Origin: Bacteroidales bacterium
Lineage (GTDB): Bacteria > Bacteroidota > Bacteroidia > Bacteroidales > Tenuifilaceae
NCBI GenBank assembly: GCA_013141385.1
Contig: JABFRB010000002.1
Span: 62,001 to 126,000, forward strand
Length of the DNA stretch: 64,000 nt
Direction: 5' to 3'
Shown: positions 28,067 through 44,631 of the stretch, one piece after another
How positions within the stretch are numbered: the stretch's first letter is position 1
How the letters are laid out: each line of letters begins with the position of its first letter
Notes under the pieces: generated by a model
Databases searched by the model: none
What the model saw: the letters and a program-made list of their open reading frames with translations, nothing else
Told to the model about the DNA's origin: nothing
Translations under genes and position numbers: made by a program

Positions 28067-28729
28067 ATGAAAATAAGTACTTTACAGATTCTTGCTTTAA
28101 TTGGAATTTTAGGGGGTCTTTTAATGTTTATCGGAGATATGTTTTTCTATTTAGTACCTATTGACGGTAATTCATTCTTCAAAGGGACTATTTTTATTAT
28201 GAGCCAAAGGCAAAATTTATGGTTGGTAATGGGTGCATTGGTTGGTCCATTAGCTGGATTATTACTATCAATATCATCAATATCAATTTATATAGCCTTA
28301 AAACCTTATAATAAATTTTTACCGATAATTATTTCAATATCATTCATCATCATTTTCACTTTCGGAGGTGCTTTTCAGACATTATATGCGCTACAAGGTT
28401 CTTATTACAGAATTGGAGATCCCCAAATTAAAGCTGATGTTTTTTATTATTTAGGGCAAATTATGAACCCAATTCAAAAAATAATGTTAGTTTTTGGTAG
28501 TTTAGGCAATTTTCTATTTATTTTATTTATTTTATTGAAAAAAACATTATATCCAAAATGGGTTATATTTTTCACACCCCTTACAGCCTTGTTAATTGTA
28601 TATATATACATGATTGTTCCATATCCTTTGGGTGCGTTTATCGTAGGTGGATGGACCAATATCTGTTTGATTTTATTTTTTACAATTAACTACATAGTTT
28701 TTAAAAAAAGTTTAACAAAAACAATCTAA
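28067..28729 (+). CDS. DUF6796-like multi-pass membrane protein
   Basis: 220 aa with about six hydrophobic helices (starts near 5, 55, 85, 135, 168 and 190). The overall pattern (L-G-G-L-L-M-F-I-G-D-M near the N-terminus, G-A-F-Q-T-L-Y-A near the middle) resembles DUF6796 as I recall it; the name is tentative and the function unknown. It is 10 bases upstream of the GIN-domain gene and 14 more separate that from the radical SAM gene, so it may be the first gene of the maturation operon. Confidence 0.65.
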   Translation: MKISTLQILALIGILGGLLMFIGDMFFYLVPIDGNSFFKGTIFIMSQRQNLWLVMGALVGPLAGLLLSISSISIYIALKPYNKFLPIIISISFIIIFTFGGAFQTLYALQGSYYRIGDPQIKADVFYYLGQIMNPIQKIMLVFGSLGNFLFILFILLKKTLYPKWVIFFTPLTALLIVYIYMIVPYPLGAFIVGGWTNICLILFFTINYIVFKKSLTKTI

Positions 28730-28739
28730 GAGTTTTAAT

Positions 28740-29375
28740 ATGAAAAAAAAGCACTTAGCAATTTTAATAGTATTATTTATGAGCATAAATTTAAATTTCT
28801 CATGCGATAGTAGAAATAATTATAATGATAGTAATTCTGATATAATAATAGGCATCGGGGAACTTGTGGAGCAAACTGTTGATTCGGCTAGTTTTACAAA
28901 AATTAACCTTATTGGACAATCAAATATTTCCATTACAAAAGGCGATACTCAAGTAATTAAAATTAAAGCGCAACAAAACATTTTAGATATTATGACTCAT
29001 AGAGTATCAAATGGTGTATTTATAGTTGGATTTGAAAACAACCACAAGATTGGAACAAATAAAGGCATTTTTGTTGATATTATAACACCTTCAATCATTT
29101 CTGATGTTTCCATCTCAGGTGTTGGAAACATAAAGGCATACAAGGGACAACAAGAAGCATTTAATATTACAATGTTGGGAACTGGTAACGTAGATGCCTT
29201 TGATTTAATTGCTGATAATTGCTCAATAGTAATATCTGGAACTGGAAATTGCAACGTATGTGCAAATAAAAAATTAAACGTTACAATTGCTGGGGTGGGT
29301 AAAATTTCCTATAAAGGACATCCAGATATTTCTCAAAACATTTCAGGTACAGGTAATATTAATAATGCAAATTAG
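28740..29375 (+). CDS. GIN-domain (DUF2807) lipoprotein-like protein
   Basis: 211 aa. Residues 1-22 form a signal peptide ending in a cysteine (N-F-S-C-D), suggesting a lipoprotein. The rest matches the head GIN domain (DUF2807): repeated short beta-helix turns with S-G-V-G-N-I, L-G-T-G-N-V, S-G-T-G-N-C and a final S-G-T-G-N-I, i.e. a right-handed beta-helix with G-x-G-N at each turn. Such proteins are common Bacteroidota surface or periplasmic proteins of unclear role. Here the gene is closely spaced between DUF6796 and the radical SAM maturase, so it may be co-expressed with that system. Confidence 0.85.
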   Translation: MKKKHLAILIVLFMSINLNFSCDSRNNYNDSNSDIIIGIGELVEQTVDSASFTKINLIGQSNISITKGDTQVIKIKAQQNILDIMTHRVSNGVFIVGFENNHKIGTNKGIFVDIITPSIISDVSISGVGNIKAYKGQQEAFNITMLGTGNVDAFDLIADNCSIVISGTGNCNVCANKKLNVTIAGVGKISYKGHPDISQNISGTGNINNAN

Positions 29376-29389
29376 CTTACAAGGTATTT

Positions 29390-30787
29390 ATGAAAAAATC
29401 AAAGTATTGTTATTTTTTTGAAGAGGGTGATGAACTAATTGCATATTCGGCTCTATGTAACGAATTTGAAGAATTTCACATAAATCAAAAAGGAAAAATC
29501 GATGATATTCTTAAGTTTCCTGATGAGATAATTACCAACAACGATAATATCATCTATAAAAAATTAGCGGATAAACTTTTTATAATCCCTGACTATATAG
29601 ATGAATATAAGCAAATGGTGGAAATGCATCGAAAGACAATTTATAGACAAGATAAAATAATGTTTACAATTTGCCCAACAATGGCGTGCAATTTAAGATG
29701 TAAATATTGTTATGAGGCTCATGCAGAATTATCCGAATCCACCATTTCACGTGAGGTTATTGACAACATTAAGAAACATATTGAATCAAAAATTGAGCAT
29801 TTGAAAGAATGCACTATTTCATGGTTTGGTGGTGAACCTTTATATTGCCCTGAGATAATTGAAGAAATAAGTACATTTTGTATTGATCTTTGTGAAAAGA
29901 ATAAAGTACAGTATACTAGTGGTATGACTTCAAATTTTGCCTTAGCTACCAAGGAGGTAACTTCAATACTCACAAAATCAAAAATTCATAATGTACAAGT
30001 AACGCTTGACGGCTATAAAGAGAATCATGATTTATTCAGGGTAACTAAAAATAATAAGGGAACTTGGGATTTGTTAGTTAAAAATATTTTATACTATCTC
30101 AATTTTGACAAGAGTAACAGCATAATTCTTAGAGTACACTTCCCTAATACTGCTAATGAAATATACTTGAATAATACATTAAGAGATTTGCAGGTTTTCG
30201 ATAAAGAATTGCGCAATCGGATTGGTGTTTACCCTCATGCCGTTTTTAGCAGTTGTACAGATACATGGGACAACAATGATAATAGTACAAATAAAAAGAA
30301 AGTTGAGACTAAAGTATCGTCTGTTGTATTTAATAAGTTGCTAGAGAAATTTAGAAAAGAAGTTTTTCAATTAGGATTTCAATCCAACGTTTTCAATATT
30401 AAACCCTACAATTGTGAGGCGGATTTAGATTATTTCTGGACAGTGCGCCCTGATGGTTATCTTTCAAAATGTACCGTTGCACTTGAAAAGGAACGTGCAC
30501 AAGCCGTTATTAATAAAACAGGTATAAAAATACTGAATAATAAAATATTGGATTTTCATCAAAAAGACCATTCCATGTACTTATATAAGGAATGTTCAGA
30601 ATGTAGTTATTTGCTATTTTGTTGGAGAGGATGTGCTTATTCACTTGCTGAAGAAAAAGAGCATCCTAAAGATATTGAGCGAAAATGTGGTATAAAGCAC
30701 AATAACTGGATGATGGAAAGGCAAATAGATAATATCAGATATAAATATTTACAGCAAAAAAGAAATTTATTAAATCATGAGAATTGA
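29390..30787 (+). CDS. Radical SAM/SPASM peptide maturase
   Basis: 465 aa. A short N-terminal segment (about 1-80) resembles the peptide-recognition region found before many maturases. The catalytic radical SAM motif C-N-L-R-C-K-Y-C is at Cys100, Cys104 and Cys107 (CX3CX2C), followed by W-F-G-G-E-P-L near 145, the SAM-binding G-G-E. The C-terminus is a canonical SPASM domain: G-Y-L-S-K-C, then C-S-E-C-S-Y-L-L-F-C-W-R-G-C (CX2CX5CX3C) and a final Cys, which bind two auxiliary [4Fe-4S] clusters. Such enzymes make Cys-alpha-carbon thioethers (sactipeptides), other C-S bonds (ranthipeptides) or C-C links. The gene overlaps the pseudo-SAM partner by 11 bases and precedes a Cys-rich precursor, so the peptide at 32073 is the expected substrate. 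Confidence 0.93.
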   Translation: MKKSKYCYFFEEGDELIAYSALCNEFEEFHINQKGKIDDILKFPDEIITNNDNIIYKKLADKLFIIPDYIDEYKQMVEMHRKTIYRQDKIMFTICPTMACNLRCKYCYEAHAELSESTISREVIDNIKKHIESKIEHLKECTISWFGGEPLYCPEIIEEISTFCIDLCEKNKVQYTSGMTSNFALATKEVTSILTKSKIHNVQVTLDGYKENHDLFRVTKNNKGTWDLLVKNILYYLNFDKSNSIILRVHFPNTANEIYLNNTLRDLQVFDKELRNRIGVYPHAVFSSCTDTWDNNDNSTNKKKVETKVSSVVFNKLLEKFRKEVFQLGFQSNVFNIKPYNCEADLDYFWTVRPDGYLSKCTVALEKERAQAVINKTGIKILNNKILDFHQKDHSMYLYKECSECSYLLFCWRGCAYSLAEEKEHPKDIERKCGIKHNNWMMERQIDNIRYKYLQQKRNLLNHEN

Positions 30788-31796
30788 TCCATTTACCGAT
30801 ATTGTTGAATTTGAGCAAAAAGTATATATTATTAATCTCCGCACAGGAGCCATTGATGAAATTGACACAGAGCTTAAAACCAATATTGTCAAGCTAAAAG
30901 CTAAAGGCAGTTTTTCTGACGAAGATTCATTAGTTAAGGGAAGTATTTTGTTAAACCTTATTGATAAAGGATATATTACAAGTTTCACAGATAAGGACTT
31001 AGAAATATCAAAAGTCAACACTTTTGAGGGTTATAAAGAAACCCGTAAAAAGAGGGAGAAAATACCCTCTTTGGTTTTGGACAACAATATCTCTCAAACC
31101 TTTTGTACACCATTAGAAAGCGATAGAAATCCTACAATTTCTATGGCAATGGAAAAATTTAAAGATATTGTTAGCCATCTAAAGAATAATGACTCTGTGA
31201 ATGAAATAAACATATTCAAAACACATATAAGCAATAATGATTTATCAAGTATTCTGGAAATTCTAAGAGAATTTGATTTAAGACTTAAAAGTATATATAC
31301 AAGCGTTAAGAATGCTTCCGAAATAAATTCACTTTTGGATACTATAAGCAAAAGTAATATTCAAACTGAAGTTAATATTCGGGATAAGAATAATCCGCAA
31401 TACTATTCCTGTCATATCTTTAATAATAAGCAAAAAGATATTACTGGGCAAAAGAAACTATATTATTGTGATGATGATTATTTTATTTGTCAGTTTTTAT
31501 ACAACACATATTTTATTGATAATACAGGAAACATAAACTATTGTATTAAAAAATCATATACTGACGAAAAAATAAGAAATATATTTAACGAGGATCAAAA
31601 CATTTCAAATTGGAGTCTTAACATGTTTGATACCTTATGCAATAATGAGAAAAAAAATTGCAAATATTCCCTATACTGTAGAAAAATGTGTGGTTTTTTA
31701 GAAAATATACGAGAAACTAAAGCAAATGATGAGTGCCCAATACCTGTTGAATTAGATAAATATATAAAAGAAAAGGTCAAAACACTGACTAGTTAA
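30777..31796 (+). CDS. Pseudo-radical-SAM partner protein with SPASM-like C-terminus
   Basis: 339 aa. The first 70 residues (K-V-Y-I-I-N-L-R-T-G-A-I-D-E-I-D, L-L-N-L-I-D-K-G-Y-I) look like a PqqD-type RiPP recognition element. The middle third resembles a half radical-SAM barrel (V-N-E-I-N-I-F-K) but has no CX3CX2C. The C-terminus retains SPASM-like cysteines: G-N-I-N-Y-C, then C-N-N-E-K-K-N-C-K-Y-S-L-Y-C-R-K-M-C and a last Cys in E-C-P-I. This resembles the pseudo-rSAM component of the Bacteroidales GG peptide systems. It probably binds the leader and presents the core to the true maturase encoded just upstream (11-base overlap). Its catalytic inertness is inferred from the missing motif. 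Confidence 0.8.
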   Translation: MRIDPFTDIVEFEQKVYIINLRTGAIDEIDTELKTNIVKLKAKGSFSDEDSLVKGSILLNLIDKGYITSFTDKDLEISKVNTFEGYKETRKKREKIPSLVLDNNISQTFCTPLESDRNPTISMAMEKFKDIVSHLKNNDSVNEINIFKTHISNNDLSSILEILREFDLRLKSIYTSVKNASEINSLLDTISKSNIQTEVNIRDKNNPQYYSCHIFNNKQKDITGQKKLYYCDDDYFICQFLYNTYFIDNTGNINYCIKKSYTDEKIRNIFNEDQNISNWSLNMFDTLCNNEKKNCKYSLYCRKMCGFLENIRETKANDECPIPVELDKYIKEKVKTLTS

Positions 31797-31815
31797 CACT
31801 TTTAAAATTGAGCAT

Positions 31816-31875
31816 ATGAAAAAGATTAAAAAACCTAATTTATTTGAGTCTTTTGAGATAATTATTCTTGTATAA
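31816..31875 (+). pseudogene. Truncated leader of a second precursor peptide
   Basis: An ATG ORF of 19 codons plus stop: M-K-K-I-K-K-P-N-L-F-E-S-F-E-I-I-I-L-V. It matches the leader of the intact precursor (M-K-E-V-K-K-A-N-A-F-E-A-F-E-I-I-D-L) with K-K-x-N-x-F-E-x-F-E-I-I shared, then a stop replaces the rest. It starts 20 bases after the pseudo-SAM stop. The following 197 bases (to 32072) have no matching Cys-rich core in any frame that I could find. It is best read as a decayed paralogue of the precursor gene, and it marks the recognition part of the leader. Confidence 0.7.
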
Positions 31876-32264: not shown

Positions 32265-32277
32265 TGAATTAAGTGAT

Positions 32278-32315
32278 GAGGGTGTCCAAAAAGTAGAGGA
32301 CACCCTCTTTTTATT
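32278..32315 (+). terminator. Rho-independent terminator after the precursor gene
   Basis: GAGGGTGTCC (32278-32287) pairs with GGACACCCTC (32298-32307), loop AAAAAGTAGA, followed by TTTTTATT. It ends the precursor transcript and separates it from the acyltransferase gene. This arrangement would let the precursor be made in excess over the enzymes. Confidence 0.9.
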
Positions 32316-32409
32316 GATGCATTTTTCGAGAAGTCTTCTGAATATTCAATTTTCAGAGACTTAATTTTTATTTTTAGACAGTTCTATCATTTTTATAATT
32401 TACTTGTTA

Positions 32410-33651
32410 ATGCGAATAGATAATAATATGTTAACGATAAAGAAGTTAGTATTCAGATTTATCTTTCGGATAGTATACTTTGCTGTTTACTTTTCAATTG
32501 ACCTTAAGTTTAGGTTAAATAAACAAAAACACTTTGTTCAAAGAAACACCATTGTTTCCATAATAAAAAGACTTTTAGATGTTGAAAAGAGAGTTGTTGC
32601 AGATAATATCTATCGAAAAAATTTAGCTTATGCTCATTCTTACTTGGTAGTTTATAAATTGTATCTCTTTTTGTTGTCTAAACATTTACACAAGAATACA
32701 CAGATAAAAAATATTCACAACAAGATTGATTTTGAAAAAGGAACAATTTTTTTAACTTTTCATTTTATAGGCAATATTGAAAATTTAGTACGTTGGATAT
32801 CTTTGAATAATAATGAATTGCATATAATTTACGGTAAGAATTTCTTCACCAAAGATGCAGAACGATTGCTAGGCAAAAAAAAAGATGACACATTTGAAAA
32901 TTTAAAATATATTCATCAATATAATAAATTATTTAAACTGAAATTGATATCTTTTGATGAACCCAATATTTTCTATGAATTATCTAACATTCTAAAAAGT
33001 GGAGGTAAAGTTCTCTTTATGTTTGATGAGTTTCCTAAAACTACTAAAAATGAAACACATTTTTTTAAATACAGAATAAATGACTATTTTGCAGCCCGAG
33101 TACCAAAAACAATATTTTATTTACTTAAAAAAACCAATTGTCAATTAGTACCTATAATAAATGTGAGGGAAAATATTATTAATAATTCAGTACATATTTT
33201 GGGCAATATAAATTACAATTATGCTCTGCCTAATGTATCATTTGAGGTAGAGAGTGAAAGAGTTTTAAAAATAGTATATGATTTTTTTGTTTCACATTTG
33301 AGGGAAACACCTGAACTTTTAATGCCCTCCGTTTGGCTTCGATTTTACTATTATGTTAAAAGTAGTTCCAATATCAGGAATAATACAATTACAACACTAA
33401 TAGATTCTAATAAAAGCTATAAACCTGAGGGTGATTTTATTTGCTATTTAAATAGAAGAAAAAATTTTGGTTACATATTTAGAGAAAATGACTTAAAATG
33501 CGCAAAAGTAAGTGCTATAAGTGTTAAAATATTCAGCGAATTAATTCGTAAAAATCATATTTCAAAAAATGAATTGATGATTTATAGAGATGAAATTAAT
33601 GCCATGCTTAGTAACTTTGCTAAAGAAGGCTTTATAAGCGAATTGAAATGA
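32410..33651 (+). CDS. LpxL-like acyltransferase with C-terminal RRE-like domain
   Basis: About 413 aa. The N-terminal 30-90 residues include an amphipathic/hydrophobic stretch (I-F-R-I-V-Y-F-A-V-Y-F) suggestive of membrane attachment. From about residue 105 the sequence resembles the LpxL/HtrB lipid acyltransferase fold: F-L-T-F-H-F-I-G-N-I-E-N (His118 with a Glu downstream, one residue longer than the usual HX4E), then G-G-K-V-L-F-M-F-D-E-F-P near 200 and later L-V-P-I-I-N-V. The last 75 residues (Y-K-P-E-G-D-F-I-C-Y-L-N, then S-V-K-I-F-S-E-L-I-R and F-A-K-E-G-F-I) look like a PqqD-type winged-helix RRE. An upstream TTG at 32404 is possible. It overlaps the M50 gene by four bases. Inference: it may N- or S-acylate the peptide. 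Confidence 0.65.
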   Translation: MRIDNNMLTIKKLVFRFIFRIVYFAVYFSIDLKFRLNKQKHFVQRNTIVSIIKRLLDVEKRVVADNIYRKNLAYAHSYLVVYKLYLFLLSKHLHKNTQIKNIHNKIDFEKGTIFLTFHFIGNIENLVRWISLNNNELHIIYGKNFFTKDAERLLGKKKDDTFENLKYIHQYNKLFKLKLISFDEPNIFYELSNILKSGGKVLFMFDEFPKTTKNETHFFKYRINDYFAARVPKTIFYLLKKTNCQLVPIINVRENIINNSVHILGNINYNYALPNVSFEVESERVLKIVYDFFVSHLRETPELLMPSVWLRFYYYVKSSSNIRNNTITTLIDSNKSYKPEGDFICYLNRRKNFGYIFRENDLKCAKVSAISVKIFSELIRKNHISKNELMIYRDEINAMLSNFAKEGFISELK

Positions 33652-34883
33652 GCAATAATATAAAAGAAAATTCGCCAATATACATTGCGAAACACGAATT
33701 AACTTGTTTAGACACTTCCAGTAAAGAGAAAAGATATCGTTTAGTTTCGAATAAATGCGATATAGAAATTAACGATAATGTAAAATTATTCATTGATTTT
33801 ATAAAAGAAAACGAAGGAGAATTATTCGGAATAATAATCAATAAATCTGTTCAGTACTACAATACAGATGAAAGCACAATAAAAAAATCCCTTGATCAGC
33901 TAATTACTAAAGGGGTAATCGTTCTTGATAAGATCGAAGATGGTGAGGAATTTATACCATTTAGGAATAAGTCAAGCCAACTATGGTTTAGAAAGAAGTT
34001 AATTGAAACAGAAAATCATAAAAAATTCTTTAGTTTTTTTCATTTTGCATTTTCAAAGGCATTTATTATTACAGTAGTGATTTTGCTTTTGGTAATTGAT
34101 ATAATCTTCTGGAAATTACACAGCAACGGAGCATGGAAAAATGAGTTAAAATTTTTCTCATCCTATGATTATGTTTATATTATATTATTCTCCCTTTTTA
34201 TGACTTTTATCCATGAAACAGGTCATATTTCTGCAGCTATGAAATACAATGCAAAAACTGGAGGAATAGGGATAGGTATGTACTTTTATCTTTTAATCGC
34301 TTGGGCTGATATACATGAATCATGGAGTTTGAAAAAGCGACAAAGTATGATGATTTCAATAGGAGGGCTTTATTTTAATGCTATTTGTTTTATTCCGTTC
34401 ACTATTTTGGGTATTGTCTTAAAATCAAGAGCAATTATCGATTTTGTTATATTGAGCCATTTCACTATTTTGTTTTTGTTTAACCCATTTTTGAAAATGG
34501 ATGGATACTGGTTTATTACCGAATGGGTTGGCGTTCCTAATTTACAGACTAAAATTACTATGTTTTTTAAGGAATATCTTCCTTCGCTCGTAAAAAAGGA
34601 AAGGAAGAGAAGCATTTTTAGTAGTTATTCTTTAAAAGTAAAATCATTTTGTGTAATCTATGCTTTTTTAACAGGGGCTTTTATGGTTTACTTTATGTAC
34701 TTTATAATTCACTTTGGGATTACTATGTTATTAAATTTTGATCGCGAATACGTAGGTGTAATTGTTAACTATATTGATGGCTCTCGACAAATGTATTTTA
34801 ATACATTTATTCGAAATACTTTTTTGTTAGTTGCTTGTACTAAAATTTTATGGGGATATTTAAAAAAGGTTATTCAATTATAA
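33648..34883 (+). CDS. M50-family intramembrane metalloprotease with N-terminal RRE-like domain
   Basis: 411 aa. Residues 1-100 resemble PqqD-type winged helices (R-Y-R-L-V-S-N-K-C-D, then S-L-D-Q-L-I-T-K-G-V-I-V-L). About six to seven membrane segments follow from about residue 130. The zinc site is H-E-T-G-H (His189, Glu190, His193) inside a helix, and the third-ligand motif N-P-F-L-K-M-D-G-Y-W is near 285-295, the S2P-type N-P-x-x-x-x-D-G. PqqD-fused M50 proteins accompany several RiPP families and are thought to remove leaders or aid export at the membrane. The stop codon lies in the terminal repeat of the MITE-like element at 34879, which may have been a recent insertion. Confidence 0.85.
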   Translation: MSNNIKENSPIYIAKHELTCLDTSSKEKRYRLVSNKCDIEINDNVKLFIDFIKENEGELFGIIINKSVQYYNTDESTIKKSLDQLITKGVIVLDKIEDGEEFIPFRNKSSQLWFRKKLIETENHKKFFSFFHFAFSKAFIITVVILLLVIDIIFWKLHSNGAWKNELKFFSSYDYVYIILFSLFMTFIHETGHISAAMKYNAKTGGIGIGMYFYLLIAWADIHESWSLKKRQSMMISIGGLYFNAICFIPFTILGIVLKSRAIIDFVILSHFTILFLFNPFLKMDGYWFITEWVGVPNLQTKITMFFKEYLPSLVKKERKRSIFSSYSLKVKSFCVIYAFLTGAFMVYFMYFIIHFGITMLLNFDREYVGVIVNYIDGSRQMYFNTFIRNTFLLVACTKILWGYLKKVIQL

Positions 34884-35346: not shown

Positions 35347-37713
35347 ATGAAAAATTCAAACTATTTCTTTTACTTAATATTTCTTCTCTTTTTGTATTCA
35401 AGTTCGGTGGAAAGCCAATCTATTAACGGAATTGTGGTTGATGCATCAACTTTATCGCCATTGCCATACGCTAATATAGTTATGAAAGATATCAAAGGCG
35501 GGTATATGTCGGATGCTAACGGGAAATTTGAAATAAAAACTTTAACACCAACAACATTATATACAAGTTATATCGGTTATGAAACAAGTCAAACGGAAAT
35601 TACACCTATAGACTCCTTTGTTCTAATTAAATTAAATAGTAACGCTTATTCGTTGCAGGAAGTTACTGTATTTTCAAGAACTTCTAATCAGGTTGACACA
35701 TTGAGTTTTATGAAATTCAAGAATAAGCAAATAGAATTGCTTTCAGGTTTTTCCAAAGACTTGTACAGATCGCTTCAAATGATGCCAGGTGTAAGTAACA
35801 ATAATGAGTTAAGTGCTAAATATAATGTACGTGGTGGAACATTTGATGAAAATATTACATTTATTAATGGAGTTAATGTTACCGAACCTTTTCACATGAG
35901 ATATGAACCATTAATAAGTGTTGGAATATTTCCCATTGATGTAGTAGATAAAATTAATTTTTCATGTGGAGGTTTTAGTGCCCAATATGGTGATGCTTTA
36001 AGCTCAGTTTTAGATGTTACTTATAAACGTGGAAATAATAAGGCGTTGGCAGGTATTGTTAATGCTAGTTTAATTGATTTTGGATTTTTGCTTGATGGAC
36101 CTATAAACTCAAAATGCACATACCTTTTTGCGGTTCGGAAAGATTATACTAATTATGTTCTGAGAATGGCTAATAGTGATCCCAATAACAATGTTTCATA
36201 CTATGATATACATGCCCAACTTGATTATAATATTACACCAAAAAGTAGTATAAGATTTAATTGCATTTACTCAGCTGATAATTTTAGATACAAGCCCAAA
36301 ACTACTTTTGCATATTATAATGACCAATTTTATGATAACGCAAACCAGTTAATTAAAGCAGAATCTACCCAATCTTATACAAAGGATCTTGATATGAATT
36401 ATTCAAACAAATTAATTTCACTTCAATCTCATAATAAGTTATCTGATAAAATTTCAAATGAATGTATAGTTTCATACTATCAAGCATACGATAATTATAA
36501 AAGTAAAGATCTATATTTTACAACAAGAGATTTTGAAATTAGCAAAAACTATTATTATCAATCTACTTCAAATACTTCAAATAATAAGTATTTAACTACT
36601 GATATTCTTGAGGTGCAAGATCATATTAAATATTATTTGACTGCACATAATTCATTATTGCTTGGAATAGATTATCAAAATTTACATTATAACTCTAATT
36701 TTAGTAATGTTCGAACTAAGATTTCAAGGTGGAATTTTGTCAATTTTCCGGATACAGCAAATCAAACTAATATTTTTATAGATACTTTAAAAGGCAAACC
36801 AATAACTTATAAAATTGGTGGATATATTGAAAATAGATGGCAGATTAATAAGACTATTCAATTGAATATTGGTTTTCGTTTGGATTATTTTAATATGAAC
36901 AGGGAATTTGATATTAACCCGCGGTTAAGTATGGGCTTTAATTTACCTAATAATATTAGCATAAGAGCCGCTTGGGGTATATTTAGTCAAATGCCAATAT
37001 TTAACCAGTTTAGATTTATGTCATCAACTTCAGCTAATACAAAAAATCAAAAGGCACAACATTATATAATAGGTATTAGTAAAAGATTTGACAAAAATGT
37101 TATAATCAAAATAGAACCGTATTTTAAATATTATCAATCCGTAATTCCTGCTCAGCGATTGACTAATACTGATTTGATATATTCTTTGGCGGACTCTTCA
37201 AAAGGAGCTACAGGTTATGCGAAAGGTGTCGATTTTGAATTTCAAAAAAATTACAATAAAGTATCAATATGGCTTAGTTATGGGTATCTAGTAGCGAAAG
37301 AAAAACTTAAAAACGGTATTGAATACCCTAGGTATTCAGATCAAAGGCATACTTTTTCGTTTAGTATGAACTATTATTTAAATAAGAAATGGGAATTTAA
37401 TTTTAAATATTTTTACGGTAGTGGTTATGCCTATACACCTCAGGTGTTAACATCAACACCTCCATATAGATGGATTTTACAAGAAAAAAACTCAGGTAAC
37501 TTTCCCGCTTATAAACGATTGGATATAAGAATTAGCAGAAAAATTGATTTATTTAAGAAACCTTTGTTGATTTACATGGATATTATGAATGTTATGAATG
37601 CTAAAAATATTTATTCGTATGATTACAAGTATGATGCACGAGAAAACCCTTGGATGAAAACTCTAACATTATTACCAATGATTCCATCAATTGGTATGTC
37701 ATATCAGTTTTAG
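35347..37713 (+). CDS. TonB-dependent outer-membrane receptor
   Basis: 788 aa. A signal peptide covers about 1-23 (F-F-Y-L-I-F-L-L-F-L-Y-S-S-S-V-E-S). Residues about 24-105 form a carboxypeptidase-regulatory-like domain (I-N-G-I-V-V-D-A-S-T-L-S-P-L-P-Y-A-N-I-V), followed by a plug (Q-M-M-P-G-V-S-N-N-N-E-L, Y-N-V-R-G-G-T-F-D-E-N) and a 22-strand-like beta-barrel ending in an aromatic Gln-Phe. It should import or bind a large ligand using TonB. It is 24 bases upstream of the ligase/TPR gene and close to the maturation genes, so it may act on the peptide (uptake of competitor product, immunity or signalling) or on an unrelated substrate. Confidence 0.93.
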   Translation: MKNSNYFFYLIFLLFLYSSSVESQSINGIVVDASTLSPLPYANIVMKDIKGGYMSDANGKFEIKTLTPTTLYTSYIGYETSQTEITPIDSFVLIKLNSNAYSLQEVTVFSRTSNQVDTLSFMKFKNKQIELLSGFSKDLYRSLQMMPGVSNNNELSAKYNVRGGTFDENITFINGVNVTEPFHMRYEPLISVGIFPIDVVDKINFSCGGFSAQYGDALSSVLDVTYKRGNNKALAGIVNASLIDFGFLLDGPINSKCTYLFAVRKDYTNYVLRMANSDPNNNVSYYDIHAQLDYNITPKSSIRFNCIYSADNFRYKPKTTFAYYNDQFYDNANQLIKAESTQSYTKDLDMNYSNKLISLQSHNKLSDKISNECIVSYYQAYDNYKSKDLYFTTRDFEISKNYYYQSTSNTSNNKYLTTDILEVQDHIKYYLTAHNSLLLGIDYQNLHYNSNFSNVRTKISRWNFVNFPDTANQTNIFIDTLKGKPITYKIGGYIENRWQINKTIQLNIGFRLDYFNMNREFDINPRLSMGFNLPNNISIRAAWGIFSQMPIFNQFRFMSSTSANTKNQKAQHYIIGISKRFDKNVIIKIEPYFKYYQSVIPAQRLTNTDLIYSLADSSKGATGYAKGVDFEFQKNYNKVSIWLSYGYLVAKEKLKNGIEYPRYSDQRHTFSFSMNYYLNKKWEFNFKYFYGSGYAYTPQVLTSTPPYRWILQEKNSGNFPAYKRLDIRISRKIDLFKKPLLIYMDIMNVMNAKNIYSYDYKYDARENPWMKTLTLLPMIPSIGMSYQF

Positions 37714-37737
37714 TTAATCTTAAATACATACATTATA

Positions 37738-40197
37738 ATGCTGAGTAAACTACATAAAGAAACTTTTATTGATAATGCATTATTCTACCTTCTTTGCGGT
37801 ACAATTGCATTTGCTTTTGTAAATATTAATCTTGCTTTACCCATACTAGTTTTAATTAGTTTGTTTAGTTACTTATTAAGACAAAGAGGTAAAATATCTG
37901 ATAAAAATATTTATGTTAAGAATGTTTTACTTTTTATCATAGTTATTTATGAGTTTTTTAATTATTCTCAAGCAATTAACGAATTTAACTCATTGAATTT
38001 CTTGATAAGAATTATTTTTTTGATTTTCATCTATTATTCGTTGAAGAGTTATTTAGCACTTCCACATTTTAAAACTAAACTATTTTTAATAATTTCAATT
38101 ATTGGGCTTATTTTTGGAATTGTTTCAATCTTAGAATTTATCTATTTCCATTATAATATAGGTCTTACAGGTTTTAGTGATATTGTTGATTTTAAATATA
38201 TTTTTAGACCTTTAAATATTTTGATAAATGAATGGGTGTCTATTTGTTTAATTTTGTTGCCCTTTACAACAGTAAACTACTTTTTATTAGAGAATAAAAA
38301 AAAGTACCGTTTTGTTTTTGCAATATCAATGATTCTTACGGTAGTTTGTATCCTAATCTCATTTTCGAGAGGTGCTTATATTGCATTAGCTTTATTTATA
38401 TTTATTTCATCTGTTTTACTTTTTATTTATAAAGTATTTAATTTAAAAAAATTAATTAGTTTAAACATTGCTGTTATTTTAATTTGTTCCTATTTAATAA
38501 TTCCATATCATAAATCAGTATTATCAACTATTTCATTATTTAAAACAACATCTCAGCAAAGAAGTATTGAAGGGAGAAAAGAATTGTATTCTTCTGGAAT
38601 AGCTATTTTCAAGGATAATTACAAATATGGTATTGGTTCAAACAACTTTGCAATAGCTAATAATACATATAAAGAAAAGAATATAGACACTGTTTTTACT
38701 GGAAGAACGAATAACTCATGGTTGCAAATACTTATTGAAAAAGGTCTTATAGGCTTCTTTTTATATTCAACTGTTTTTTGCTTTGCAATTTTCACCTCAC
38801 TTAATCAACTAAGGAGATACGATACCGATAATTTTAGAAAAATTCAAATTATTATTTTGAATGCCGGTTTTATTGCATTTATAATGAGAGAATTCACTTT
38901 CTCATCTTTATTAACCAATAATATAGTGCTAATATTGACATTTCTTTTGTTAATGTTTATTCTTAATGAAAATCATTTTAAAATTAGATCGAATATATCA
39001 ATTTTTAAGCATGTGTTTTTTGTTGTTTTAATGATAATTGGAATTTACGGTTCAATTATGAGCTATAAAATCTATAGAGCCCAAACTTGTAATTTGAAAT
39101 GTATTGACGAATTTAATAAAGGGAATAATGAATTGGCAGAATATTATAACAATAAATCTATTGAATATTTTCCTAATAATTCAGAATATATGGCTCATAA
39201 GGGGTTTTTAAATTATTTAAAGTATAAAAAGGAGCACAACGATTCTTTATTATTTAGGAACACTAATGGAACTGATGTGAATCTAATAACTTCAAGAGCT
39301 TGTTATAATAAGTCATTTGAGATAAATAATAAGGATGATTTTTATCTATTTAACCTTGGCATCCTTTCTTTTTTAACAGGAGATAAAGAGTTAGGTTTAG
39401 AAGAAATAGATAAAGCAATTCTTGTGGAACCTAATATTGCTATTTATCATATTGTAAAAGGATTGATTCTTGAAAAAAATGGTGATTCTATAAATTCAAT
39501 ATTTAACGAATATACTACTGCTCTTATTTTATCTCCGGAGTTGACCGATTCATATTTTTATAAAGATTTTAGGAGTAGATTTCCTGTTGAAAGCAAACAA
39601 TTAATTCAAAAGGCAATTGAAAGAATAAACAAATTACAATTATCGAACCCTATAATTATGGCGAAATTAGGAAAATTACATTTGGCCAATAATGATACAG
39701 TAAATGCCAATAAATTCTTATTGAGAGTTACACAGATAATGCCGAATGTTAACAGACCATGGCTTTATTTAGGTGATATAGGTAAGGCAAAACAGGATAC
39801 AACAAACATGAAAATTTATTATGAACGTTCGGCATATTTAGATTATGGAGATTTTTTACCTGCAAATTCATTGGCCAATTATTATTATTCGATAAAACGG
39901 AATGAAATAGCAATTGAGTTTTTCAAAAAGACATTGACAAATTGGTTGAATATTCAATCCCAGCATTCTAATACAAGTGAAAATATATATTTAACAAAAT
40001 CAATTTCCAATAATTTACTACCAGTAGGAATTTTGTATTATATCAGACCAATTGTTGATTTTGAAGATATACAGGTTAAACTATTTGAATTGAATTTGAG
40101 TGATGAACAAAAGAAAGAATTTAATCTATTATTTAGTAAAATAAGTGAAAAAATAAATAATGTAAACTCAATTTCAATTAGTTACAAGTGTGACTAA
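37738..40197 (+). CDS. O-antigen-ligase-like (Wzy_C) membrane protein with TPR tail
   Basis: 819 aa. About eleven hydrophobic helices occupy residues 10-450. The Wzy_C features are S-F-S-R-G-A-Y-I-A-L near 210 and G-R-T-N-N-S-W-L-Q-I-L-I-E-K-G-L-I-G-F near 325-345, the large periplasmic loop where the usual His is replaced by Asn. Residues about 470-800 contain five to six TPR-like helix pairs (L-A-K-L-G-K-L-H-L-A-N-N-D, W-L-Y-L-G-D-I). The family transfers lipid-linked glycans to an acceptor (LPS or, in the PglL group, proteins). Acceptor here is unknown. Gap of 24 bases after the TonB receptor suggests cotranscription. Confidence 0.85.
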   Translation: MLSKLHKETFIDNALFYLLCGTIAFAFVNINLALPILVLISLFSYLLRQRGKISDKNIYVKNVLLFIIVIYEFFNYSQAINEFNSLNFLIRIIFLIFIYYSLKSYLALPHFKTKLFLIISIIGLIFGIVSILEFIYFHYNIGLTGFSDIVDFKYIFRPLNILINEWVSICLILLPFTTVNYFLLENKKKYRFVFAISMILTVVCILISFSRGAYIALALFIFISSVLLFIYKVFNLKKLISLNIAVILICSYLIIPYHKSVLSTISLFKTTSQQRSIEGRKELYSSGIAIFKDNYKYGIGSNNFAIANNTYKEKNIDTVFTGRTNNSWLQILIEKGLIGFFLYSTVFCFAIFTSLNQLRRYDTDNFRKIQIIILNAGFIAFIMREFTFSSLLTNNIVLILTFLLLMFILNENHFKIRSNISIFKHVFFVVLMIIGIYGSIMSYKIYRAQTCNLKCIDEFNKGNNELAEYYNNKSIEYFPNNSEYMAHKGFLNYLKYKKEHNDSLLFRNTNGTDVNLITSRACYNKSFEINNKDDFYLFNLGILSFLTGDKELGLEEIDKAILVEPNIAIYHIVKGLILEKNGDSINSIFNEYTTALILSPELTDSYFYKDFRSRFPVESKQLIQKAIERINKLQLSNPIIMAKLGKLHLANNDTVNANKFLLRVTQIMPNVNRPWLYLGDIGKAKQDTTNMKIYYERSAYLDYGDFLPANSLANYYYSIKRNEIAIEFFKKTLTNWLNIQSQHSNTSENIYLTKSISNNLLPVGILYYIRPIVDFEDIQVKLFELNLSDEQKKEFNLLFSKISEKINNVNSISISYKCD

Positions 40198-40312
40198 TTT
40201 TTTTAAAACTAAATTTTATTACTTGGTATCCTGTATAAAATAAATGTAGAAGTTCAATTTAAAAAACTAAAATTGAGAAGGATAGGAAAGTATTTTAAAC
40301 GTAATTGTGAAT

Positions 40313-40987
40313 ATGATACAGCTTAATAATATACATAAAACCTATTTTACAGATAAAACCAGCCTACATGTTTTAAAGGATTTGAATTTATCAATTGAGC
40401 AAGGTGAATTTGTATCAATAATGGGTTCTTCTGGTTCTGGTAAATCTACTTTGCTAAATATTATTGGACTATTAGATAACTATGATAGTGGTGAGTATTA
40501 TTTTAATGGTTTGTTAATGAGGAATTTATCGGAAAAAAAAGCAGCCTATTATCGAAATACCTTAATGGGCTTTGTTTTTCAATCGTTTAATTTAATTAAC
40601 TATCAAAACGCATTAGATAACATATCATTGCCATTATTTTATCAAGGAGTGTCTCGAAAGCAAAGAAATAAAATTGCTTTAGAGTATTTAGAGTTGATGG
40701 GGTTAAAAGATTGGGCGCATCATTTACCTAATGAAATGTCTGGTGGACAGAAACAGAGGGTTGCAATTGCCCGAGCATTAATTACCAACCCACATGTAAT
40801 AATGGCAGATGAACCTACAGGAGCTTTAGATTCTACAACTTCTTTAGAAGTTATGGAATTATTGAAGCAAGTAAACAACAAGGGTATTACAGTTATATTG
40901 GTGACTCATGAAGTTACTATTTCTTCAATGACAAACAGGATAATTTATTTAAAAGATGGAGAAATTCATAAGAATACGGAACTATAA
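40313..40987 (+). CDS. MacB/LolD-type ABC transporter ATP-binding protein
   Basis: 224 aa stand-alone ATPase. Walker A is G-S-S-G-S-G-K-S-T (about 36-44), Q-loop Q-S-F-N-L, signature M-S-G-G-Q-K-Q-R, Walker B V-I-M-A-D-E-P-T-G-A-L-D and H-loop L-V-T-H-E. It belongs to the type VII (MacB/LolD) ATPases that drive mechanotransmission across the periplasm rather than transport through the membrane. The ATG at 40313 is preferred to the GTG at 40307. Followed by two permeases and an adaptor: an efflux or lipoprotein-release complex, plausibly exporting the mature peptide. Confidence 0.93.
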   Translation: MIQLNNIHKTYFTDKTSLHVLKDLNLSIEQGEFVSIMGSSGSGKSTLLNIIGLLDNYDSGEYYFNGLLMRNLSEKKAAYYRNTLMGFVFQSFNLINYQNALDNISLPLFYQGVSRKQRNKIALEYLELMGLKDWAHHLPNEMSGGQKQRVAIARALITNPHVIMADEPTGALDSTTSLEVMELLKQVNNKGITVILVTHEVTISSMTNRIIYLKDGEIHKNTEL

Positions 40988-41015
40988 TAAGAGCAAATAA
41001 GAAGAAAAGACAGAA

Positions 41016-42254
41016 ATGAAAATGTTTTCCTTTTTTAGTTTGCATGAATTACTTGCACCCCTGAAAAATAATAAAGCAAGAACCATACTAACTGGATTTA
41101 GTGTAGCATGGGGTATATTTATATTAATCATTCTATTAGGAGTTACTAATGGTGTTCAAAATGGGATACTTGTGAATTTTGAAAATGAAGCAAAAAATAG
41201 TATCTGGATTTACTCAGGAATAACAAACAAGAGTTATAAAGGACTACAACCAGGGCGTCGAATTAATTTAACAAAGGATGACTATTTAGAACTTTCCAAC
41301 ACTTTAAATTCGTCAATAGAAAAAGGTACGGTACGGTTATATTACTGGAATAACAATATAATAACTTATAAATCACAATTTGGAAAATATAATATTTGTT
41401 TTGTAAACCCAGGTATTAAGGATTTAACGCAACTCCAGATTATAGCGGGGCGTTTTATAAATGAAAATGATGTAAAAACCGAAAGAAAAGTTATTAGCAT
41501 TTGCTATACAATTAAGCAAGAATTGTTTGATAATGAAGAACCAATTGGTAAATACGTTAAAATAAATAATATTAACTACATGGTAGTTGGGGTTCATAAG
41601 AGTCCCTCAGAATATGATAATCACAAAGCCTATATACCTATTAGTGTTGGGCAAATGTTAAACAAAAATTCTCAAAACATCAATGATATTGGATTTCTAT
41701 TGCATAATATTTCTGTACAAAAAACGAAAGAATTAGAACTATGTATAAGGAAACAATTGTCACGTAAACATGATTTTGATGATAAAGATAATAGAGCTAT
41801 TTGGATTAAAAACTCGTTAGAAACCTATGAAAAAACAATAAATATGTTTTCAGAAATAAATATTTTTGTTTTTTTCATTGGAATTGGGACATTGATTGCG
41901 GGAATAATGGGTGTGAGTAATATTATGCTGATAGTTGTTTTTGAACGGAAAAAGGAAATAGGAATTAGGAAGGCTGTCGGGGCCACGCCGTTTGCTATTG
42001 TTGGTCAAATTGTAATTGAGTCTGTGTTTCTAACAAGTGTTTCGGGTTATATTGGCTTAATTACAGGTATAGGTATGTTAGAGTTCATAAATAGAAATGC
42101 AGTAAATGCACAATATTTTAAAAACCCATCTATTGATTTACGTATTGCATTATTGGCCGTTGTTGTTTTAATTATTTGCGGTACAATTGGAGGGTACATA
42201 CCAGCAAAACACGCAGCAGGAATTAAGCCAGTTGACGCATTAAAAGATGAGTAA
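41016..42254 (+). CDS. MacB-like ABC transporter permease (first)
   Basis: 412 aa with one N-terminal membrane helix (about 20-45), a large periplasmic MacB_PCD domain (about 45-270), and the three C-terminal FtsX helices (about 285-310, 330-365, 370-400). The conserved E-R-K-K-E-I-G-I-R-K-A-V-G-A coupling helix is at about 308-321. It should form a heterodimer with the next gene product and pair with the ATPase 28 bases upstream. The gap to the second permease is 11 bases. Confidence 0.92.
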   Translation: MKMFSFFSLHELLAPLKNNKARTILTGFSVAWGIFILIILLGVTNGVQNGILVNFENEAKNSIWIYSGITNKSYKGLQPGRRINLTKDDYLELSNTLNSSIEKGTVRLYYWNNNIITYKSQFGKYNICFVNPGIKDLTQLQIIAGRFINENDVKTERKVISICYTIKQELFDNEEPIGKYVKINNINYMVVGVHKSPSEYDNHKAYIPISVGQMLNKNSQNINDIGFLLHNISVQKTKELELCIRKQLSRKHDFDDKDNRAIWIKNSLETYEKTINMFSEINIFVFFIGIGTLIAGIMGVSNIMLIVVFERKKEIGIRKAVGATPFAIVGQIVIESVFLTSVSGYIGLITGIGMLEFINRNAVNAQYFKNPSIDLRIALLAVVVLIICGTIGGYIPAKHAAGIKPVDALKDE

Positions 42255-42265
42255 TACCAAATAAA

Positions 42266-43537
42266 ATGATTCTGTTCAAAATTGATAATTGGCATGAGAT
42301 ATATAGAATTTTGCGGAGTAATAAACTTCGCACTCTACTAACTGCTTTTGGTATTTTTTGGGGAGTGTTCATGCTAGTGTTAATGGTTGGTGTAGGCAAA
42401 GGTTTTGAATATGGAAGCAGAAAAAAATTTGGAAACTTATCCGTGAACAGTTTTTTTATTTGGCCACAAAGCACAACCAAACCTTATAATGGTTACAAAC
42501 AGGGAAGAAATTATACTTTTTCTCTGGATGATGTTCGTATCATCAAAAGTAATATTCGAAGTGTTGAATTTATAGCTCCTCAGTTAAATGGAAAACCCTA
42601 TGGAAGTTTGTTAGAATACAATAATAAAACTGGGAATTATAGCATGATTGGGAATTATCCTGATTACATGCTTAAAATAGATCCAGTAAACATTATTTAT
42701 GGTAGAATAATAAATAATATTGATATTAAAGAAAAAAGGAAAGTTGTTTTAATTGGTTATAAAGTATATTGTGATGTGTTTGGCAAGAATGAAGACCCGA
42801 TAAACAAACTTGTGAAGATTGGATCTGTATATTTCACTGTTGTTGGTGTTTTTAATTCGCTACATTCAGATTCATGGGCGCTGCATCAGGACAATACTAT
42901 TGTTATCCCGTACACAACATTTCAAAAATTATATGGTATTGGAACAAATGTATGGACAATGGCTCTTATTGCTAAAGATAGTTATGATTGCAAAATCACT
43001 GACGAAAAGGTTAGGGCTTTATTACGAAAACAACACAAAATTCACCCAGAAGATAAATCAGCCATTAATGGATATAATCTTGGCTCGGAATACAAAAAAA
43101 TGAATGATTTTTTTGACAGTATTAATTTGATGATTTGGATAATTGGCATAGGAACATTACTGGCTGGGGTATTTGGTGTTACAAATATTATGTATATAAC
43201 TGTAAGTGAAAGAATTTCGGTATTTGGTATTCAACGGGCTATAGGTGCAGAACCTAAACAAATATTTATTCAAGTTATTGTTGAATCGATGACTTTGACA
43301 TTTATAGCAGGTTATCTTGGTTTATGTGCTGGGATAGTTGTTGTTGAAACTGTTGCATATCTATTGGTAAATAATATAATAACCAATATCACTTTTGGAA
43401 GACCTGAGGTTAATATAAATATTGCATTGATTTCTCTTTTGATTATAATTGTAAGTGGAATAGTAGCAGGATTTATGCCTGCTAGACATGCAACAAAAAT
43501 TAAACCAATTGATGCCATAAGAACTAATAAAGACTAA
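42266..43537 (+). CDS. MacB-like ABC transporter permease (second)
   Basis: 423 aa, same architecture as the upstream permease: N-terminal helix (I-L-R-S-N-K-L-R-T-L-L-T-A-F-G-I-F-W-G), periplasmic domain, and C-terminal FtsX module with S-E-R-I-S-V-F-G-I-Q-R-A-I-G-A (coupling helix) and F-M-P-A-R-H-A-T-K-I-K-P at the end. Paralogous permeases side by side are typical of Bacteroidota MacB operons. It links to the adaptor gene 11 bases downstream. Confidence 0.92.
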   Translation: MILFKIDNWHEIYRILRSNKLRTLLTAFGIFWGVFMLVLMVGVGKGFEYGSRKKFGNLSVNSFFIWPQSTTKPYNGYKQGRNYTFSLDDVRIIKSNIRSVEFIAPQLNGKPYGSLLEYNNKTGNYSMIGNYPDYMLKIDPVNIIYGRIINNIDIKEKRKVVLIGYKVYCDVFGKNEDPINKLVKIGSVYFTVVGVFNSLHSDSWALHQDNTIVIPYTTFQKLYGIGTNVWTMALIAKDSYDCKITDEKVRALLRKQHKIHPEDKSAINGYNLGSEYKKMNDFFDSINLMIWIIGIGTLLAGVFGVTNIMYITVSERISVFGIQRAIGAEPKQIFIQVIVESMTLTFIAGYLGLCAGIVVVETVAYLLVNNIITNITFGRPEVNINIALISLLIIIVSGIVAGFMPARHATKIKPIDAIRTNKD

Positions 43538-43548
43538 TTATACTAGAA

Positions 43549-44631
43549 ATGGAAAAAACACTTAAGTATTTAGGTATCAGTTTTATAATACTGATATTTA
43601 TAGTTCCAATACTCTATTTAAGCACTAAATCAAAAAAGAGATTTGAGATATATAGCACAACCAATGCTGTAATTACCAATGTTGTAAAAAAGACAACTGT
43701 AACAGGCTCAGTAATACCTCGCAAGGAAATACAAATAGTTCCACAAGTGTCTGGGATTATAGAAAATATTTATGTTGAAGCAGGACAAGAGATTAAAAAA
43801 GGGGATTTAATCGCAAAGATTAAAATTATACCGAATATGTTACAACTTAGCGAGGCAGAATCACGCTTTGAAAAAGCTAAATTGATGTTAGATGATATTC
43901 AAAGAAAATTTGATCAACAAGAAGTTCTTTTCAATAAAAAAGTAATACCCGAAAACGATTATTTTCAAAGCAAAATAAGTCTTGAAAATGCTAAAGTTGA
44001 GCGAAATGTTGCTGAAAATAATCTTCAATTGATTAAGGAAGGTGTTGCTAAGAATGCATTGGTTGCAACAAATACACTTATAAGGTCAACTATTAATGGA
44101 ACAATACTCGATGTGCCAGTCAAAGAAGGTAATTCAGTAATTGAAACAAACACTTTTAATGCAGGAACAACAATAGCAACAGTAGCTGATTTGAATGATA
44201 TGATTTTCAAGGGCATGATAGATGAAACCGAAGTAGGAAAAATTAATAAAGGAATGCCAATAAAACTAATTATTGGAGCCATTGAAGGGGTTAAGTATGA
44301 TGCAATTATAGATTATATTTCGCCTAAGGGAGTTGAAGTTTATGGAAGCATTCTTTTCGAAATTAGAGCAAAAGTAAAACTTGCAAATAAGTTTTTTATG
44401 CGGGCAGGTTATAGTACAAATGCAGAAATAGAAATGGAACGAAAAGACAGTGTTATTGCTATTAATGAGAGCCTTTTACAGTACGATAACGACTCTACCT
44501 TTGTTGAAATTGAAACAGCCCCACAAAATTTTAGAAAAAGGTATCTTAAAGTTGGAATAAGTGATGGTGTGAAAATAGAAATTCTAGGAGGACTTAAGTT
44601 AGAGGATAAAATAAAAATTTCAAGTAAATAA
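43549..44631 (+). CDS. Periplasmic adaptor (HlyD/RND-MacA type) protein
   Basis: 360 aa with a single N-terminal membrane anchor (about 5-25) and the MFP layout: barrel-sandwich/lipoyl half (V-P-Q-V-S-G-I-I-E-N-I-Y-V-E-A-G-Q-E-I-K-K-G), coiled-coil hairpin (about 100-160, S-E-A-E-S-R-F-E-K-A-K-L-M-L), second half with I-R-S-T-I-N-G-T-I-L-D-V-P-V-K-E-G, then beta-barrel and membrane-proximal domains. It bridges the two permeases to an outer-membrane TolC-like channel, which is not encoded in this window. End of the 40313-44631 operon; a terminator follows at 44704. Confidence 0.93.
   Translation: MEKTLKYLGISFIILIFIVPILYLSTKSKKRFEIYSTTNAVITNVVKKTTVTGSVIPRKEIQIVPQVSGIIENIYVEAGQEIKKGDLIAKIKIIPNMLQLSEAESRFEKAKLMLDDIQRKFDQQEVLFNKKVIPENDYFQSKISLENAKVERNVAENNLQLIKEGVAKNALVATNTLIRSTINGTILDVPVKEGNSVIETNTFNAGTTIATVADLNDMIFKGMIDETEVGKINKGMPIKLIIGAIEGVKYDAIIDYISPKGVEVYGSILFEIRAKVKLANKFFMRAGYSTNAEIEMERKDSVIAINESLLQYDNDSTFVEIETAPQNFRKRYLKVGISDGVKIEILGGLKLEDKIKISSK

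Follow-up and report, generated by a model that had tools for sequence, protein, structure and literature searches.

A candidate pathway for a lipidated, cross-linked Cys-rich peptide with an LpxL-type acyltransferase in a Bacteroidales genome

Among the ribosomally synthesized and post-translationally modified peptides (RiPPs), the leader of the daptides is removed by MpaP, an intramembrane peptidase dependent on a RiPP recognition element (RRE) (PMC10036551, partial text), and that of the TMcins, which have transmembrane precursors and Gram-positive hosts, is removed in the membrane by a site-2-type protease of the DUF3267 family (PMC13252029, partial text). Acylation by enzymes of GNAT fold is described for microvionin, goadvionins, lipoavitides, selidamides and nostolysamides (PMC13060382, partial text); DAG-RiPPs receive a lipid on Cys through Lgt, LspA and Lnt by way of a signal peptide (PMC12636315, partial text, with Bacteroidetes among its key words); the acylated RiPPs otherwise named in the accessible parts of these two papers use GNATs or lipoprotein enzymes. 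ComQ and PalQ, prenyltransferases of isoprenoid-synthase fold, target Trp, in the case of PalQ a C-terminal one (PMC10853753, partial text). The subject here is a block of ca. 16 kb, positions 28067–44631 of a 64,000-nucleotide stretch (the window) of contig JABFRB010000002.1 of a Bacteroidales bacterium (Tenuifilaceae); all its listed genes are given with their strand in Table 1, and all open reading frames (ORFs) named in an earlier sequence-only reading were found in the ORF list of the window where that reading had put them. The block is probably a RiPP pathway whose product would be a Cys-rich peptide that is both cross-linked and lipidated, an LpxL-type enzyme attaching the acyl group. 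By sequence and model it holds a precursor with the leader motif LExRLE, a radical S-adenosylmethionine (rSAM) enzyme with its dead copy, an acyltransferase of LpxM/PatA fold with an RRE-like tail, a site-2-type (M50) protease with an RRE-like head and a MacAB-type exporter.

The lipid-RiPP family around the window is apparently undescribed. No LpxL-type enzyme in RiPP biosynthesis was found among the open-literature matches listed (titles and starts of abstracts, in searches that did not extend to the leader motif), and the terms "acyltransferase" and "M50" have 0 occurrences in RRE-Finder (PMC7470986), in PMC12710340 and in the survey of Bacteroidales RiPPs (PMC10352776).

The Cys-rich precursor of 63 amino acids proposed by the sequence-only reading is present, with 7 Cys, and carries the family leader motif (pattern [LIVMF]E.[RKH][LIF]E). 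M50 relatives were collected in 90 distinct loci: the window, 1 plasmid, 11 genome stretches and 80 genome-contig loci, minus 3 duplicates (L080, L081 and L138, dropped from motif, tree, partner and core counts; the scan of neighbouring genes, with 93 loci, includes them); the genome-contig loci are the best 80 of at least 395, and frequencies among them are not population rates. A small ORF with the leader motif lies near the M50 gene in 59 of the 90 loci (92 motif ORFs, that of the window being one, among 1932 considered); the shuffled control gave a mean of 1.6 loci and a maximum of 5 (200 trials). Sorted by partner gene within 9 kb, a motif ORF was found in 22/23 loci with an acyltransferase (window included), 27/32 with an isoprenoid-type enzyme, 6/16 with an O-antigen-ligase-like (Wzy) protein and 4/19 with none. 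Homologues scattered without a small Cys-rich ORF had been named beforehand as the outcome that would speak against a peptide locus; the M50 relatives gave the opposite, those of the 22 of 23 acyltransferase loci included. A short encoded precursor with a leader stands next to modifying enzymes, as is general for RiPPs, and the reading of the block as a peptide-natural-product locus is supported. No lipoprotein signal peptide was recognized by inspection: the N-terminus is charged and no hydrophobic stretch precedes Cys25. The terminator read after the precursor is strong, as claimed (z −4.65; 0/200 shuffles fold as well).

Searched alone, the window acyltransferase (ACYLTRANSFERASE) matched nothing in Pfam or NCBIfam at E ≤ 1. 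Its gene has an ATG start at 32410 and a TTG at 32404, a small correction to the sequence-only reading. The family was seeded from an unannotated ORF before the M50 gene of locus L058, itself reached through M50, and iterated, its relatives being reached only through neighbours of M50. A profile of 7 members, the window not among them, recovered the window protein over residues 96–409 of 415 (E 5.5e-5); Lip_A_acyltrans was matched at E ≤ 1 by 15/21 members (best 1.9e-19); the family profile against PDB gave LpxM (1.7e-14) and PatA (4e-10); all 14 Foldseek matches of the AlphaFold2 model at E ≤ 1e-3 were LpxM or PatA. No GNAT family was among the 17 families listed for its members. Family profile and fold agree on the LpxM/PatA type, and the acyltransferase identity proposed earlier is upheld.

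The tail of the acyltransferase is predicted as three strands followed by three helices (predicted local distance difference test, pLDDT, about 52–80). This β-β-β-α-α-α arrangement is the PqqD/RRE order of elements. PqqD was matched by 1/21 members at E 0.024, and lasso PqqD by 1/21 at 5.6e-4; the tail is largely missing in nine members (L087, L095, L098, L100, L103, L105, L107, L116 and L129), most of them beta- or gammaproteobacterial by our reading of the alignment. An hhalign comparison of the window acyltransferase with the M50 profile, for matching RRE-like parts, gave none (probability 0.2%). As to the RRE-like domains claimed for both proteins, the predicted order of elements was recovered; a significant fold match for the domains themselves was not.

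The identity of the protease was confirmed by H189, E190 and H193 (HETGH) with D285 (DGYW), invariant in 26 members; by alignment and predicted model, HExxH and the distal Asp lie in membrane helices (pLDDT 85, predicted template modelling score 0.84; RRE-type head about 85–93 pLDDT). SpoIVFB was the top Foldseek match (E 5.6e-3; no match reaches 1e-3), and the matches include RRE-bearing RiPP enzymes, ThcOx (probability 0.96, E 0.65) and TbiB1 (0.35). The best NCBIfam match was the daptide model NF041824 (E 1.8e-16, 60 bits, cut-off of 300 not reached), and the YydH/LiaK model NF058609 gave E 3e-9 (36.9 bits, cut-off of 225 not reached). The acyltransferase and M50 genes overlap by 4 bp.

In the rSAM enzyme, the CX3CX2C motif (C100, C104 and C107) and the SPASM Cys residues (C342, C361, C402, C405, C411, C415 and C433) are invariant in a 12-member alignment, as expected for the SPASM enzyme read at this place; the protein stays below every NCBIfam cut-off among the best 25 of 50 families (best 147 bits vs 525, TIGR04463). 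Epipeptides also use an rSAM enzyme. The second protein, described earlier as a pseudo-rSAM partner overlapping the first, does overlap it, by 11 bp, and lacks the CX3CX2C motif. It is colinear with the rSAM profile at 10–143 and 149–334 with the middle missing (26 bits total, from a database of two sequences, so that the E-value flatters), and its SPASM region was aligned by hhalign (E 8.8e-5, probability 60%); judged by its sequence, it is a dead copy of an rSAM/SPASM maturase. The GG-Bacteroidales rSAM system was rejected as a candidate, no such family occurring among the matches of the pseudo-rSAM protein or the precursor, nor among the best 25 of 50 for the rSAM enzyme. Since an rSAM gene lies near M50 in only 33/90 loci and in 7/23 acyltransferase loci, the enzyme is optional in the family. 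Six rSAM matches besides that of the block occur in the same genome (five retrieved, L059–L063), possibly other peptide maturation loci.

Table 1. Features of the block and their positions in the window.
Feature	Position	Strand	Evidence or remark
DUF6796 membrane protein	28067..28729	+	PF20599, E 4.4e-16; cluster membership uncertain
DUF2807 (head GIN) protein	28740..29375	+	PF10988, E 5.5e-24
Radical SAM/SPASM peptide maturase	29390..30787	+	TIGR04463 best NCBIfam match, E 5.9e-43
Pseudo-radical-SAM partner	30777..31796	+	retains the N-terminal region and a SPASM-like C-terminus; lacks CX3CX2C and the radical SAM core
Degenerate second precursor	31816..31875	+	leader-like start, then stop; resembles 32073 leader by inspection
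Precursor peptide, 63 amino acids	32073..32264	+	leader motif LEEKLEF; Cys-Gly repeats in the core, which has 7 Cys
Intrinsic terminator	32278..32307	+	perfect 10-bp stem, 10-nt loop, T5 tail, −20.2 kcal/mol
LpxL/LpxM/PatA-type acyltransferase, C-terminal PqqD/RRE-like domain	32410..33651	+	family profile and model
M50 (site-2-type) intramembrane protease, N-terminal RRE-like domain	33648..34883	+	start overlaps acyltransferase stop (ATGA)
Outer-membrane TonB-dependent-receptor-like protein (CarboxypepD_reg and Plug)	35347..37713	+	relatives near M50 in other loci
O-antigen-ligase (Wzy_C) and TPR protein	37738..40197	+	PF04932, 2.2e-18
ABC ATPase, MacB/DarD type	40307..40987	+	NF038007, 2.7e-76, 256 bits vs cut-off 375
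MacB-type permease 1	41016..42254	+	PRK10535, 7.9e-33, below cut-off
MacB-type permease 2	42266..43537	+	PRK10535, 1.4e-35, below cut-off
MacA/HlyD-type periplasmic adaptor	43549..44631	+	TIGR01730, 5.1e-35, above cut-off

Partners within 6 kb of M50 were an acyltransferase in 23 loci, an isoprenoid-type enzyme in 31 and a Wzy protein (O-antigen ligase/TPR) in 17; 70 of the 90 loci have one of these and 20 none. Two types together were seen in the window only (acyltransferase and Wzy); acyltransferase with isoprenoid-type enzyme and isoprenoid-type enzyme with Wzy were each found in 0/90 (Fisher tests for exclusion, 1.7e-5 and 4e-4). The acyltransferase is on the M50 strand in 23/23 loci, which span Bacteroidota, Pseudomonadota, Myxococcota, Gemmatimonadota and Eiseniibacteriota; in 7 the two genes overlap or lie ≤100 bp apart (L103, an over-long ORF, set aside). 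On an M50 tree of 80 rows (a quick tree, whose starred branches deserve less trust; 10/90 loci with M50 ORFs >520 amino acids excluded), the acyltransferase changes 6 times (at least 4 forced by starred branches), the isoprenoid-type enzyme 9 times (at least 5 forced) and Wzy twice; one starred clade mixes isoprenoid loci L048, L049, L051, L068 and L094 with acyltransferase loci L050 and L092. Since the acyltransferase and the isoprenoid-type enzyme exclude and replace each other, a common role, a lipid-attachment slot, is suggested.

The precursor cores follow the partner in part. Trp occurs in the precursors of 25/27 isoprenoid loci vs 7/21 acyltransferase loci (Fisher 2.5e-5; two ORFs, L132 5146 and L094 13432, were dropped as chance), and the precursors of L108 and L118 end in Trp; Cys follows the motif in 33/33 precursors of the acyltransferase class, and also in those of the window and L159. 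In 3/4 isoprenoid partners examined, the C-terminal domain is squalene-cyclase-like (PF13243, to 7e-21; PDB, 4.6e-29); the N-terminal domain is of weak polyprenyl-synthetase likeness (E 0.011 and 0.093; PDB, 0.096), with DDxxDxxxD invariant in 5/5. These sister loci (L048, L049, L052, L054, L056, L108, L122, L126 and others) are candidate loci of prenylated RiPPs. The wider proposal, for and against which we see about equal grounds, is that lipidated RiPPs with the LExRLE leader, an RRE-bearing site-2-type protease and interchangeable lipid enzymes form a new class, the window being a two-enzyme hybrid with rSAM cross-linking. That the slot would hold an LpxL/PatA-type acyltransferase for Cys cores, an isoprenoid-synthase/cyclase enzyme for Trp cores or a protein resembling O-antigen ligases, with the LpxL type new as a RiPP peptide acyltransferase, is likewise evenly balanced.

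The product may instead be an unlipidated cross-linked Cys-rich RiPP, the acyltransferase modifying a membrane lipid (lipid A, phospholipid) for self-protection and its RRE-like tail being a relic or a localiser. The fold is indeed that of lipid A and phosphatidylinositol mannoside acyltransferases, nothing named in the block is an obvious immunity gene, the DUF2807 and DUF6796 candidates aside, and surface change is a common theme of immunity. Yet the enzyme carries the RRE-like tail; its gene overlaps or closely neighbours that of the leader protease in the 7 loci mentioned; in L097, L143 and L159 the profiles found only motif ORF, acyltransferase and M50 (other neighbours were not fully annotated); and it excludes and swaps with an isoprenoid enzyme whose precursors carry Trp. 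Self-protection is for these reasons considered unlikely, though the strongest of the alternatives.

The exporter was read correctly as MacAB-type: ATPase, FtsX-like permeases and adaptor are all present, with the permeases split from the ATPase. Counterparts of ligase and exporter exist in related clusters: a Wzy-type protein directly follows M50 in 16 other loci, is similar over most of the length of the window Wzy in seven (L069, L070, L082, L086, L088, L112 and L119), and is followed in L082 and L086 by ABC, permease and adaptor genes. The ligase/TPR protein might be the lipid-slot enzyme, as in Bacteroidales, joining the peptide in the periplasm to a glycan carried on undecaprenyl, with the acyltransferase as an extra modification; the 16 loci have neither acyltransferase nor isoprenoid enzyme within 6 kb, and 14 of them score 81–164 bits with the window Wzy vs 33–60 for seven M50-free relatives. 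However, the other two (L073, 61 bits; L077, 59 bits) score like the best M50-free Wzy (59.5), a receptor gene sits between M50 and Wzy in the window, and no glycan gene is among the families named for the block. A search of 247 genomes of the order gave Wzy relatives in 7 loci (6 genomes) outside the own genome, and in the parts that were read 0/7 of them had M50 as a neighbour; of 296 genomes in the phylum, the own one alone was matched at E ≤ 1e-15. A leading role of the ligase is rated improbable, and Wzy was rejected as an M50-bound marker on the count of 0/7.

The block is more AT-rich than its flanks, as stated earlier (GC 0.286 vs 0.358 for the remainder of the window; 0/47 flank kilobases have a GC as low as the block mean), and the gene-free AT-rich stretch said to precede it is found at 27276–28066 (GC 0.272, no ORF ≥50 amino acids wholly inside); tRNA and Rfam scans gave no matches. 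Composition and patchy distribution hint at a possible import of the block. Such an island could also have brought together by chance an rSAM peptide locus and an unrelated acyltransferase and exporter, and no exact relative of the whole arrangement occurs among the 90 loci; but 22 other loci, from several phyla, have an acyltransferase near M50, the two genes share the ATGA overlap and the leader motif is shared, and chance assembly, disfavoured already by the partner counts, is very improbable. An M50 match was found only in G688 and G693, both at 28%, among 30 genomes of relatives, of which 4 belong to the genus, 14 to the family and 12 to the order; in 59 other relatives rSAM identity was ≤37% over part of the length and ca. 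31% over most; given these distances, an orthologous cluster was not seen. The only two further M50 loci from the 30 genomes, unused for profiles, agree with the family pattern: L158 (same genus; 4275–9087: motif ORF, receptor-like protein, isoprenoid enzyme, M50) and L159 (same family; motif ORF, M50, acyltransferase).

For the favoured pathway to the lipidated, cross-linked peptide, the following course is proposed. The leader would dock on the RRE-like domains of the acyltransferase and the protease; the rSAM enzyme, aided by its pseudo-rSAM partner, would install cross-links on the Cys-Gly core; the acyltransferase would transfer a fatty acyl group to the peptide, most likely to Cys (as a thioester, or on the amine exposed when cleavage frees a Cys), and so place it at the membrane, where M50 would cut the leader; MacAB and the adaptor would export the product. 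Least certain is the role of the ligase/TPR protein, by which another lipid-linked group may be added in the periplasm.

Several observations weigh against this pathway and the class built around it. Every chemical step is our inference from sequence. The AlphaFold2 model of the acyltransferase has a mean pLDDT of 63; only H118 and D206 are invariant across its family. The usual His-Glu spacing in such acyltransferases is HX4E; in the window, the Glu known from LpxM exists as E124 (spacing HX5E), but the family does not conserve it, so that activity is not assured. Searched as a single sequence, the window acyltransferase had no relatives in 294 other genomes of the order or in one genome-contig scan. 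The branch of the window M50 is long (2.36) and its placement carries no star, so that no nearest class can be assigned to it. Sampling of loci was M50-based, its genome-contig part being the best 80 mentioned above; the exclusion of acyltransferase and Wzy is not significant (Fisher 0.06), the M50-free Wzy relatives tell against a fixed link of that gene, and the Trp test has only 2 to 4 independent phylogenetic pairs, not enough to reach significance. Cys separates the partner classes poorly, since all precursors of 21 of the 27 isoprenoid loci (22 with the two ORFs dropped) contain it as well (Fisher 0.029 and 0.059). A TolC-type gene was not among the families named for block proteins. A reverse search with two acyltransferase relatives as queries (296 and 198 genomes of the phylum, overlapping draws) matched G484, G541, G296 and the known G311 (L058), and 0/3 of the new matches were beside M50.

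An exclusive link of acyltransferase and M50, and with it the use of the acyltransferase as an M50-bound marker, is contradicted by these three M50-free relatives, one of which lies 0.7 kb from a contig end. Two of the three have a Cys-containing small ORF 11–13 bp upstream: G541 has two identical ORFs of 50 amino acids (L174, 7871–8023 and 8085–8237), the nearer 13 bp upstream of the acyltransferase, and G484 a related ORF of 58 amino acids 11 bp upstream (L173, 1807–1983; 0/1000 shuffles align as well); for G296 no small Cys-containing ORF was picked out upstream. The small ORFs of L173 and L174 may encode another family of substrates for these acyltransferases.

Ties to the cluster are weak for the receptor and for the two genes that precede the rSAM gene. 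The DUF6796 and DUF2807 genes are separated by 10 bp; the DUF2807 protein is possibly a surface or immunity part, and such a protein also follows M50 in L058 (PF10988, 2.9e-7), with a relative of the window protein ca. 2 kb from M50 in L130 (phmmer, 1.2e-10). Just past the block, at 45794–46135, lies a small ORF which, from the look of its sequence, we take to be nucleotidyltransferase-like. On plasmid L047 (typed mobilizable, Muribaculaceae), a cluster at 13790–18790 and 1–3187 comprises an rSAM gene, a motif ORF, an ORF of 759 amino acids, M50 and Wzy-like ORFs (39 bits); the last of these open the circular record, so that they may lie behind M50 over its start, and the locus was counted as partner-less. 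This plasmid cluster is a sign that such clusters move.

Should the partners be exchanged as proposed, the swapping of acyl, isoprenoid and ligase enzymes around one leader protease would make the lipidation logic of RiPPs testable by part swapping; the leader motif is a handle for mining more such clusters, and lipidated cross-linked Cys-rich peptides would be candidate antibacterials or signals.

The window shares with the daptides a protease whose best NCBIfam match is their model, below cut-off, and differs by its rSAM enzyme, acyltransferase, MacAB exporter and Cys-rich core; genes for the oxidative decarboxylation, transamination and N-methylation of daptides were not among the families named for block proteins. 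With the epipeptides (EpeX/EpeP; PMC10885120, partial text) an M50 protease is shared, that of the window being below cut-off, whereas the SPASM maturase, Cys-rich core and acyltransferase set the window apart. TMcins likewise have a site-2-type protease and differ in host, protease family and precursor, acyl groups going unmentioned in the accessible part of the text. The SPASM RiPP maturases (TIGR04463, CefB, Clo7bot and PapB models) have the same rSAM architecture and Cys-rich peptide context; the window enzyme falls far below their cut-off, and its locus adds its own leader motif, an acyltransferase and a protease. Compared with ComQ and PalQ as described in the accessible text, the isoprenoid sister loci have an isoprenoid-synthase-like enzyme (weak match) and Trp-bearing precursors, and differ by the squalene-cyclase-like domain of most enzymes examined, by M50 and by another leader. 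DAG-RiPPs, as far as their partial text describes them, resemble the proposed product in being lipidated, with the lipid on Cys, and differ in that the window has a clustered acyltransferase and, by inspection, no signal peptide. The GNAT-acylated RiPPs of the partial text have in common with the window the fatty acylation of a ribosomal peptide, here a proposal, and the acyltransferase of the window is of LpxM/PatA fold instead. It shares fold and sequence profile with LpxL/LpxM and PatA themselves, and differs from them by its C-terminal RRE-like domain, its gene context and the unconserved Glu of its family. If it acts on the peptide, lipid A-type acyltransferases would be a further way to make lipidated RiPPs, besides GNATs and the lipoprotein pathway, in at least the five phyla named.

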